DNA of 64,000 nucleotides from Branchipolynoe longqiensis (lineage: Eukaryota; Annelida; Polychaeta; Phyllodocida; Polynoidae), in contig CM059191.1 of assembly GCA_030323885.1 (NCBI GenBank), forward strand, positions 107,862,844 to 107,926,843, read 5' to 3'. The notes beneath the pieces are model-generated. The model was given only the letters and a program-made list of their open reading frames with translations, made no database searches and was not told the origin of the DNA. The position numbers and the translations under genes were made by a program. Shown here piece by piece: positions 24,001 to 36,000 of this stretch; position 1 is the stretch's first letter; each line of letters starts with the position of its first letter.

Positions 24001-27000
24001 CTTTCCAACCAGCTATATCGATTCCTGCCATCCCTTTCCTACCAGCTCTACCGATTGACACCATCCCTTTCCTACCAGCTCTACCGATTCCCACCATCCC
24101 TTTCCAACCAGCTATATCGATTCCTGCCATCCCTTTCCTACCAGCTCTACCGATTGACACCATCCCTTTCCTACCAGCTCTACCGATTCACACCATCCCA
24201 TTCCTACCAGCTCTACCGATTCACACCATCCCTTTCCTACCAGCTCTACCGATTCACACCATCCCATTCCTACCAGCTCTACCGATTGACACCATCCCTT
24301 TCCTACCAGCTCCACTGATTCCCACCATCCCTTTCCTTAATACTGGAAAGACCACTAGGATTACTCTATATAACGTTTACACGTAAATAATCCTGAGTTG
24401 AAAAATGACTTGCAGACTAGTGCATCTGCACTGACAAGAACTTATTCAGCAGAATATACAAGTTTACCCACCCCCACCCTCAAAAAACCTTCTCTGATCT
24501 AAAGAATAATCACTGAATGTACTAGAAAATACATTGGCCCCATTTACCATGAAACGATACTAATACTAATTGATCTTACGTAATTATTTACATTTTAACA
24601 GGACGCTTCAAGTTAATAATCTATTTATCTATTTATTTGACAGGCGACAGAAAAACCGGGCATTTTGTTATTTTTGTAACAATATCCAAAGATTGCCACA
24701 ATGTGGACACTGTGGTGAGCAGTTTTCATGTTGATTCCCATTAATTGAAACATGCATTCGGGAGTTCTGTTGTACCAAATAACCATCACTATTTATGGAG
24801 AAGGTTGCCACATGTCAGGAGGAAAATCATGGAAAATTAGGATTTTTCAAGGTCACAGAATTTTGGGATTTGTCAGGGAAAACTGGAATTTGGAGAATGT
24901 CAGGGAAAATTTACCATTATCAGGGGGAAACGTAATTTCCTAATCTTCATGTGAAGAGCTGGCCAACTGTGGCGCTTTCGAAATGTGTGTATATTATTAA
25001 GGAAAACAAAATCTGCCAGATTCCACTCTGCTCTACAAATATTCCACTATTTATGCCATTATTATTGTATTTATTTTCTTATCATCAAAAGTAACAATAG
25101 AAAACATAATTGCCAGGTATAAGAGTATAGCATCTAACTATGCAACTGATAACCACAGCATGCACAATTTAATGTCTCAAATTGCATGGTGCATACATTT
25201 ACACAAGCAAATTCCTAATTCCAACTGCACATGCGCTGAAAATGGCCACAGAGGCAAAAAGAAGTGCATGTGTTGCGTTTCACCAGTGGTTGGTTAGTTG
25301 ATGGAGCTTTTCATCCTGGCAACATCTAAGGTCCTATCAGGACGGGTAGCGACTTGTGACAGTGCACACTAATGGCGACTTTATAGTGCTGCCTCACTGG
25401 AAGACCAGGCCTCCAGCACCATGACCTGATATCCCACTCAGTCACATTATCCTGCTACTGAGCCAGCCAGTCCTTGCCCTATCCTACTAATGCGGAGTGC
25501 CTGGCTAGGTATAAATCTTTATGTCATTGGTTTGACTCGGCCCAGGTTTGAACACATGGGTTCCAATCCCACGATCTACCAAAGCGGGAGGCGGACGCTC
25601 AACTCATTCGGCCACCCCGTCTGGTTTCACCATAGTGAGTGAATTGGTGTGGGTGTTATTCTCAGAAAAATCGATAAACGAGCCCTGCCAATTTTCAAAT
25701 GTTGTGTTCAACTAACAACAATAAAAGAATGTGAATAAAATATAAACAACTTCCTAGTCCTCTGGATCTGAACCTAGACTTGATAAATGAACTCGCTTAT
25801 TGAGATGAATATGAAAAGCTTTTGATTACAAATGTCCTGCGTTTTACTGTAAATGGTTAATTATTATCAATACTTAATTTCCAGTTAGTTCTGGTTAATT
25901 TGGTACTATTTTTATATACGTTCTAGTTTGATCGGTGTAAATACACGAGGTTGTAGAGTGAATGCTTGATTTTTAGAATTAATGTTACTAGCTATCATAC
26001 TCAATTGGTGAGTATGATAGCTACTGAGAAGTTGGCAAAAGAGATTAATGTGTTCATTAATCAGTTCCAATTGCTGTCAGGCTTTTGCCAGTACATACTT
26101 TTAGTCAGTTTTTTTTTTTTTTAACAAAAAAAATAACAACAATGCAGCAGTTTAACAGAATGAGCACATTTTAGGTCGTTTTTCCAGCATTCACAATAAG
26201 CTTGTAGTAGTTGTTCCATATTTCTAAATATAGATTTTGAGTGTTTTTGTGGGGCTTTTTAGACCAAGTACTGGTAAGTGTGCTAATTGGGCTTTGTCAT
26301 TTCAGGTAAGATCAAGTGCATGATGAAAACCGGCGACTGCGTGATTCGTCATCCGGGCGTCTTCACCATTGGAATGAGCATGGTGGTAAGTTGTGTCTGC
26401 CGCAAACAGTCTCAACGCTGTAGCTACATCATGAACATGGTGGTAAGTTGTGTCTGCCGCAAACAGTCTCAACGCTGTAGCTACATCATGAACATGGTGG
26501 TAAGTTGTGTCTGCCGCAAACAGTCTCAATGCTGTAGCTAGATCATGAACATGGTGGTAAGTTGTGTCTGCCACAATCAGTCTCAACGCTGTAGCTAGAT
26601 CATGAACATGGTGGTAAGTTGTGTCTGCCACAAACAGTCTCAACGCTGTAGCTAGATCATGAACATGGTAAGTTGTGTCTGCCACAAACAGTCTCAACGC
26701 TGTAGCTAGATCATGAACATGGTGGTAAGTTGTGTCTGCCACAAACAGTTCTCAACGCTGTAGCTAGATCATGAACATGGTGGTAAGTTGTGTCTGCCAC
26801 AAACAGTCTCAACGCTGTAGCTAGATCATGAACATGGTGGTAAGTTGTGTCTGCCACAAACAGTCTCAACGCTGTAGCTAGATCATGAACATGGTGGTAA
26901 GTTGTGTCTGCCACAAACAGTCTCAACGCTGTAGCTAGATCATGAACATGGTGGTAAGTTGTGTCTGCCACAAACAGTCTCAACGCTGTAGCTACATCAT

Positions 27001-33000: not shown

Positions 33001-36000
33001 CCTGTCTGTGGGAAAGTGCATATAAAATACCCCTTATTGCTTATCGGAAAGGTTTCCTCTAAAGAAATATTTCAGAATGACCATATGTTTTAATGTCCAA
33101 TAGCCGATTATAAAATCAATGTGCTCTAGAAGCATCATTAAATAAATAAGCTTCTTTTTTTTCTAAACGTAATACAGAAGTGATTGTTTATTTTGATAGA
33201 CATTAGAAATATACAGACTATTATCCGGAATTAGTTTCTTACGGTTCTTGAAATCCTGTCTGATTCAATCAAATGATTACTTTCAACCATAGCTAATTTA
33301 TACAATTATATAGACGCATGTTGACTATGTTTCTGCACATCGGGTAGGCAGGGATGTGACTACCCCGTATTGGTGCTTTTGTAGATCGGTCTGTGCAGAA
33401 ACTTGCTGAGTATGTTACTGTGCATTTTGTAGATCGGTCTGTGTATTTTGTAGATCGGTCTGTGTAGAAACTTGCTGAGTATGTTACTGTGCATTTTGTA
33501 GATCAGCCTGTGTATTTTGTAGATCGGTCTGTGTAGAAACTTGCTGAGTATGTTACTGTGCATTTTGATGGCGATGACATGACTGCCAGACGTTGATGCT
33601 TTGTAGATCGGCCTGTGTAGAAACTTCCTGAGTATGTGCCTGTGTATTTTGTAGATCGGTCTGTGTAGAAACTTGCTGAGTATGTTACTGTGCATTTTGA
33701 TGGCGATGACATGACTGCCAGACATTGATGCTTTGTAGATCGGCCTGTGTAGAAACTTGCTGAGTATGTTACTGTGCATTTTGTAGATCAGCCTGTGTAT
33801 TTTGTAGATCGGTCTGTGTAGAAACTTGCTGAGTATGATACTGTGCATTTTGTAGATCAGCCTGTGTAGAAACTTGCTGAGTATGTTACCGTGCATTTTG
33901 TAGATCGGCCTGTGTAGAAACTTGCTGAGTATGTTACTGTGTATTTTGTAGATCAGCCTGTGTATTTTGTCGATGACATGACTGCCAGACGTTGATGCTT
34001 TGTAGATCGGCCTGTGTAGAAACTTGCTGAGTATCTTACTGTGCATTTTGTAGATCGTCCTGTGTATTTTGTAGATCGGTCTGTGTAGAAACTTGCTGAG
34101 TATGTTACTGTGCATTTTGATGATGACATGACTGCCAGACGTTGATGCTTTGTAGATCGGTCTGTGTAGAAACTTGCTGAGTATGTTACTGTGCATTTTG
34201 ATGGCGATGACATGACTGCCAGACGTTGATGCTTTGTAGATCTGCTTCTGTGACGACCACGTTCGGAGGAAGGGGTTCAAATATGTGAAGGGTCAGGCTA
34301 TCCCCTGTCCCAAGTGTAACCACGAAACACAGGAGACGAAGGACCTCTCCATGTCAAGTAGGTGCACTAAATGTTGTCTGATAGATAAATAGTCGGCTTC
34401 CGACACCTATGCAAACAAAAACACGGCAACCAGGTTGACAGACAGGTATCCGCCAAATAAAACAGCAAATCATAATAGTAGGTACTCGAAACTGAATTTT
34501 TCTTTATGAAATCTGATTACAAATATATATAATAATGGAAAATTGGTCTATTAGTCCCTGAGATATGAATCTTTTAATATTTAATTTTTGCCCTTAATTT
34601 CAGACACATTTTTCATGATTCTGCAAATGCTTAAATCCTGCAGGGCAGATCCTGTAATTGTCACTAACTGTCCATGATCAAACCTTTAGAAAATGAATAT
34701 CTCTGTGTAAAATATTCCGATATTCAGCATAGGGGGGAATGCAAATGTTCTATTACTGATTTGGATGTGATTGCACTCAGGGCCTACCCCCTTTGCGGGG
34801 ATAGAAATCACCACACTCAAAGGTCAAGGTTGGTGGTGGCCATGGGGCCATACAGCGGGCAGTGATGGGCAGACCACTGGTATCCATGGGGACCAGGAAT
34901 GCTGGATCCCTATTGGTAGGGCCAAGAATGCTTGCTTCCCATTGGGGGAAAGGGGTGGGGTGATACTCTACAATGAACCCATGTAACCATATAAATAATA
35001 AACCAGAGGGCTGGACTCTGTCTTCTTCTTTACACTTTATACTCTTCCTTTCTCTTCGTCTGTATTGATTTCACCATAGCCTGCCTACACAGCCACAGAT
35101 TCGAGCATTGGACTTTACAAAACTGGTGACCACGACGAGTGGAGTAGTGGATTAGACTTTACATCTGGTTCTATTTGAGATATTGACTTGATTTTTGTAT
35201 CAGAATGATCAGAATGCAAATATCTATAATGTGATTACATTGTCTTTAAGCTTTATCCACATTTAACAAATCTAAACAATTTGATTGCTCTAATTAGCAT
35301 ACCCATTCTATGGTTAAGTCCAAACTGCTCAGAGTGAGTGCTAAATGGTGGTTAACAATCTACACAGATTTGTAGAGAAAGAATTTTTCTATGTACTATT
35401 ATATTTTTCAAAAAAAATATTTTGTGAAATCGTGTTTTACGAATCGTTCCAAAGTTTTCAAGGCTCAATTTTTCAAATTTATCCCACCTGAAGTCGGCCA
35501 TAATGGATACAAAACTAAAGCTAGTGATGTCTACTTTAATGTGAAAGTAGTTATTTTTAGCTCTGATGCACTCACTCGCAGCAGACAACGTTCAAAGAGG
35601 GGTACTGTGCTGAGAGCAAGTCTCCTATTTTTCCGAATGGCCAGTCAGAATCAGCAACCAGTGCTATGTTTGGAGTACCTAATATTAGTCCTTGAAAAGT
35701 AGTCTTTAAAGTAAGAGCCTTAATTCTCATACATATGTTGCGAGCGTTTGAAAGGGAAAGATTACCAAAAGTAGACTTCGAAAATGTAAACATGTAATGT
35801 TGCCAGTGAGACGGTGCTTGGGTGTCTGATGACTTTTGCCTGGAATTTCATTTTTCTTGACCAAAATTGTCATATTTGTGAGCTTTTTAACTTCATATGT
35901 GTTATTTTGAAATGCGGAAAGCACCTCATGGTATTGTACTCCTGCTTTTTCCTTTTTCATGTGAAAAAACTTACTGATATAAATATCAACTTGTGTGTAC

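Follow-up and report, generated by a model that had tools for sequence, protein, structure and literature searches.

Results

The ZNF330 gene and the other features of the window

The window analysed here, a stretch of 64,000 nucleotides from the polychaete Branchipolynoe longqiensis, carries a homologue of ZNF330 (NOA36) in which four minisatellites, A1 to A4, run across splice junctions (Table 1). The exons were located by tblastn with the human ZNF330 sequence and then refined with close homologues, and the complete 10-exon model gave a 318-residue product. A 229-residue part of this product matched 840 proteins; the best match, P0001, had 85% identity, and the other 119 among the 120 matches listed had 71–79%. 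In the ZNF330 tree, which was built from a single gene and leaves many forks open, the window sequence and P0001 formed a pair and were then joined by the annelid Paralvinella (100/97, 92/92 in the careful tree). Branchiostoma was absent among the named rows of the 120 matches listed (of 840), and the ZNF330 of B. lanceolatum showed 61% identity to that of the window. When the window sequence, P0001 and Branchiostoma were forced together, the AU test did not reject the grouping (p 0.104).

Table 1. Positions of ZNF330, its array-bearing exons and the associated repeats in the window
Feature	Position	Strand	Description
ZNF330 (NOA36) homologue	14904..38118	+	Spliced model, 10 coding exons, 318 codons
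Comparison array	23284..24337	+	TRF; 33-bp array in intron 2, away from boundaries
Exon 4	26306..26385	+	Spliced model; donor between 26385 and 26386, inside array A1
Array A1	26374..27623	+	TRF: 57-bp unit, 22 copies, 97% matches
Diverged stretch like upstream half of A2 unit	29286..29355	+	Split from the array by the interspersed repeat
SINE-like interspersed repeat	29356..29712	+	357 bp; seven other copies of at least 245 bp in the window, 69–84% identity
Array A2	29713..30057	+	TRF: 74 bp, 4.6 copies, 96%; units 74–76 bp
Exon 5	30023..30149	+	Spliced model; acceptor at 30023
Array A3	30526..31407	+	TRF: 56 bp, 15.8 copies, 91%
Exon 6	31389..31493	+	Spliced model; acceptor at 31389
Array A4	33373..34242	+	TRF, several overlapping rows; 19 acceptor-like units
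Exon 8	34240..34357	+	Spliced model; acceptor at 34240
Sixth, short intronic ZNF330 array	36334..36392		TRF

Positions 57881–63224 hold part of what we take, by homology, to be a SREBP-like gene (bHLH exon), whose intronic arrays at 61848–61912 and 62512–62960 are clear of the modelled junctions. Downstream of ZNF330 lies a 4.5-kb satellite-like array (40431–44902) with nested periods of about 60, 120 and 468 bp, and 251–2594 is occupied by 65 copies of a 36-bp unit, where both strands have long open frames. The window also contains a retrotransposon reverse transcriptase ORF; among its 120 matches listed, the one with a species name is from Paramuricea clavata (38% identity). At the gathering threshold, Rfam gave no known RNA family within the arrays. 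A tRNA-like Rfam match at 10730–10802 (41 bits), possibly the head of a SINE, was not called by ARAGORN, which found no tRNA. Comparison of positions 26000–34400 with a plasmid collection gave no match.

Structure of the junction arrays

Array limits were taken from Tandem Repeats Finder (TRF). Six TRF arrays were obtained in the introns of ZNF330, four of them across a junction, and a further one lies inside coding exon 10. Intron 4 is touched by junction arrays at both ends and introns 5 and 7 at the 3′ end; the authentic site lies in the first unit of A1 (donor of exon 4) and in the last unit of A2, A3 and A4 (acceptors of exons 5, 6 and 8, respectively). The TRF arrays and the 10-exon model agree with the initial annotation of this DNA, which had described four splice-site-containing minisatellites in the gene and had correctly given their units as 57, 74–76, 56 and about 48 bp. 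The splice dinucleotide is kept in 22/22 units of A1, 3/5 of A2, 16/16 of A3 and 18/19 of A4, authentic copies included. For A1 and A3 the dinucleotide was itself part of the pattern searched, but the spacing in both arrays is gap-free, so that no unit was skipped.

By the TRF limits, A1, A2, A3 and A4 overlap the exons by 12, 35, 19 and 3 nt, respectively; the arrays therefore reach the exon boundaries as first described and run past them instead of stopping exactly there. The A1 unit combines the last 12 nt of exon 4 with the donor site GTAAGT and a piece of the intron; this hexamer occurs in all 22 units, with a spacing of 54–58 bp. Where the exon copy has AGC, the other 21 units have AAC; one variant is common to the first three units and missing from the remaining ones. 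The A2 unit carries the acceptor together with its part of exon 5. In A3 the 16 acceptors are spaced by 56 bp throughout, and the exon 6 part extends to about 26 nt with mismatches, while in A4 the strict overlap with exon 8 becomes about 13 nt, judged by eye, when a diverged stretch is counted.

The consensus units of the four arrays and of the intron 2 array were compared in 10 pairs with 200 shuffles each. The lowest shuffle fractions were 0.02 (A1–A3) and 0.03 (A3–A4), which is weak after 10 comparisons; a common origin is not supported, and the earlier description of the units as unrelated is borne out. Copies within the arrays differ from one another, which argues against a simple assembly artefact.

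The exonic part of the units

Among the 120 best-listed homologues, the junction residues fitted loose patterns in 112 cases for A1, 87 for A2 (100 with a relaxed pattern), 114 for A3 and 117 for A4. Since the amino acids at the junctions match those of homologues, the exon sequence came first and the arrays are its copies, an argument that is weakest for A4 because of the short overlap. The exonic part is thereby shown to be conserved coding sequence predating the array, clearly for A1–A3 and weakly for A4, which may be an array of the intron that supplies the acceptor with its last unit. Inserted residues were absent at the exon 4/5 junction in the 108 homologues parsed (12/120 not parsed) and at the exon 7/8 junction in the 114 parsed (6/120 not parsed).

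Loss of the nearest decoys of exon 5

The two A2 units nearest exon 5 on its upstream side (acceptors 29875 and 29949; region 29835–29983) have one change each from the consensus, and in both decoys this single change destroys the AG, giving GG and AA. The authentic acceptor copy reads TTTCAG instead of TTGCAG. Calculated post hoc, the chance that two of two random substitutions fall on 2 of the 74 positions is 7e-4; with the change common to the two outer A2 units added, the chance of two or more of three is 0.002, again post hoc. This pattern hints that the near decoys were selectively disarmed, that is, at selection against decoys, and A2 would not be neutral in this respect because two of its decoys look disarmed. 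Since the diverged A2-like stretch sits beyond the SINE-like repeat (Table 1), A2 is suggested to be older than that insertion.

Sequence composition of the junctions

The TG/GT density of the four junction units ranked at percentiles 95.3, 99.6, 99.8 and 99.1 among non-array windows of the gene, with the intron 2 array at the bottom of this ranking. By a strand-symmetric TG measure, A1 scored 0.878 and A2–A4 each at least 0.95, and of nine other arrays (units up to 61 bp) four also reached at least 0.95. Five of 14 array-free junctions lay at or above the 92nd percentile of TG/GT density. The comparison of array and other junctions (4 vs 14) gave P 0.003 when array-homogenised sequence was used; restricted to exon sequence, it gave P 0.11, no clear difference. 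TG-richness as a cause of proneness at junctions is thus treated here as a lead only. Base pairing between A1 and A2 within intron 4 was also considered and rejected, an equally strong pairing being found in 11% of 200 shuffles.

Coincidence or targeting of junctions

The births of arrays were modelled as events spread over introns and junctions in pre-amplification coordinates. For the five long ZNF330 arrays, about 0.25 junction arrays were expected and the probability of four or more was 2.9e-5, while all six intronic arrays of the gene gave 4.5e-5. With SREBP included (25 boundaries, 7 of them from SREBP), P was 2.3e-4 for 8 arrays and 2.7e-4 for 9 arrays; the SREBP count is incomplete, as 7 junctions were used and an array at 56737–57128 lies outside the modelled part. 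All these P values are post hoc and concern a window picked for its odd look. In a separate boundary scan, a repeat lay across 4/25 boundaries, and the same scores were reached at 15–20% of 600 random positions, a control that takes in array interiors. Neither a boundary-spanning nor a low-copy duplication was detected at the other 21 boundaries (7 SREBP), using the best local alignment per side within 3 kb. Merging the TRF rows by hand gave 23 tandem-repeat intervals, which amount to 23.6% of the window; in the gene the share is 19.5%. It is because of the share in the window that random positions score often.

The scan and the high repeat content would both fit plain coincidence, with ordinary minisatellites meeting junctions in a repeat-rich gene and zero enrichment. 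However, coverage counts sequence that was made by amplification, for which reason the event model is judged fairer, and in its pre-amplification coordinates about 0.25 junction arrays are expected; we regard coincidence as rather unlikely. Alternatively, splice sites or co-transcriptional splicing might turn junctions into hot spots of duplication. The 4/6 intronic ZNF330 arrays that span junctions, with their low event-based P across all sets, and the recurrence of such arrays in amphioxus genes, as described in two reports (PMC3087553, PMC3902484), are in favour of this junction-targeted amplification, but the test is post hoc, the window having been selected for its odd look, overlap with boundaries was not above that at random positions, and the best local alignment per side revealed no spanning repeat at the remaining 21 boundaries. 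Targeting is considered unlikely. The boundary-targeted process put forward in the initial annotation agrees with the event-based test and finds no backing in the coverage test.

Predicted consequences for splicing

As translated from the spliced model, the use of a non-authentic copy would lead to a premature stop for 56/58 decoys (A1 19/21, A2 4/4, A3 15/15, A4 18/18), and the dinucleotide is already lost in 3 of the 58. Only the two decoy donors of A1 nearest exon 4, the second and the third of the array, would keep the frame, lengthening the protein by 19 or 38 residues to 337 and 356, respectively. All 18 acceptor spacings in A4 (21, 33, 48, 81 or 84 bp) are multiples of three, yet a stop lies downstream of any decoy. 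By analogy with amphioxus, ZNF330 is presumably spliced regularly at the authentic sites.

It was also suggested earlier that selection may favour decoy splice sites. In this view, selection for decoy or redundant sites would maintain the arrays, for regulated or buffered ZNF330 splicing; the dinucleotides in most copies and the two in-frame products would suit this idea, but retained dinucleotides are expected anyway without selection because the copies are alike throughout, the A3 decoys, judged by eye, show no clear drop in variability at the acceptor region compared with other parts of the unit, the great majority of decoys would lead to premature stops, and the sole hint of selection, the AG loss in the two near decoys of A2, points in the opposite direction, so that we find the proposal unsupported and very improbable.

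Discussion

Amphioxus genes are described as having exon-intron boundaries, at 5′ as well as 3′ sites, that are duplicated in tandem in the manner of minisatellites; these structures are called mirages (PMC3087553, PMC3902484). Mirages occur in Adh3, in the globins BflGb6 and BflGb9 and in TnC, and PGBD5 holds imperfect repeats of a similar kind; mirage units measure 10–72 bp in Adh3 and 150–160 bp in the globins, and AG/GT is kept in many of them. The edges of the clusters escape homogenisation, copy number and length are polymorphic, also somatically, mRNA splicing is taken as regular, and the mechanism is called unclear (PMC3087553, PMC3902484).

The ZNF330 arrays are like the mirages in these published descriptions. 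Their units span exon-intron boundaries of a real gene, at both types of site (clearly in A1–A3, and in A4 by the strict 3 nt), many but not all units keep AG/GT, and diverged edges beside a homogenised interior are present in the exon-side units of A1 and in the outer part of A2. Unlike the amphioxus cases, they lie outside Branchiostoma, there are four in one gene, and they reach up to 22 copies. Polymorphism, and splicing that is taken as regular, are described for the amphioxus genes; for ZNF330 the analysis covered the DNA of one haplotype.

Related structures are known elsewhere. In human genes within segmental duplications, internal tandem repeats lie at exon-intron boundaries (PMC2812944); these minisatellites, placed like those of ZNF330, can alter splicing and give rise to new introns. 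The paralogues concerned are of recent primate origin and often carry new introns, whereas in ZNF330 the protein at the junctions agrees with that of the homologues and a new intron is not apparent. Intron gain by tandem duplication is a further related case. In the potato RdRp, tandem duplication likewise carries splice signals and copies an existing intron-exon structure (PMC4974935); new intron and exon sequence arises there, whereas ZNF330 shows no evident new intron. According to the initial annotation, four such events in one gene were not an obvious prediction of known models. This does not hold, because the same architecture was already described in amphioxus (PMC3087553, PMC3902484), and the human boundary repeats (PMC2812944) are a further precedent. 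In the accessible parts of the literature found, the name mirage is used for amphioxus only (PMC3087553, PMC3902484), the reports of intronic minisatellites in earthworm and abalone describe none at junctions, and mirage-type arrays from the present lineage do not appear in an earlier report. The ZNF330 arrays look like a striking further mirage-type case in another animal, and not like a new kind of thing.

We consider it probable that the four arrays are mirage-type splice-junction minisatellites, which were born as junction-spanning duplications, tolerated and expanded. The anatomy of the units, the conserved residues at the junctions, the divergence of the edges, the large share of tandem repeats, the premature stops predicted for decoy use and the published amphioxus architecture all count for this explanation, and the event-based P values (2.9e-5 to 2.7e-4) count against plain random birth followed by tolerance. 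A segment of about 50–75 bp across an existing exon-intron junction would have been duplicated in tandem outward into the intron, and the duplicates would then have been expanded and homogenised via slippage or unequal exchange. Such duplications would arise readily because the genome is rich in minisatellites, and TG-rich junctions may contribute. One authentic copy would stay on the exon side, so that the protein would remain intact provided that splicing selects the outermost site on that side; since the authentic copy survives, duplications at junctions could be tolerated, unlike those inside exons. This mechanism of birth, the near-neutrality of the arrays and their correct splicing are what we infer from the features above.

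A wider proposal is that, in animals of far-apart phyla whose genomes are rich in minisatellites, splice junctions repeatedly act as hot spots of tandem amplification, with a cause linked to the junction (TG-rich sequence or co-transcriptional splicing) and with near-exon decoys later disarmed by selection. Taken as a whole, it is speculative and seems improbable at present.

The AG loss in the two decoys nearest exon 5 is a new detail. If junction-spanning minisatellites recur outside lancelets, they would warn that automated gene prediction may err at such loci. They would also be a general and datable source of duplicated splice sites, and living genomes could then serve to test models of how introns are gained, how they slide and how decoys are suppressed.
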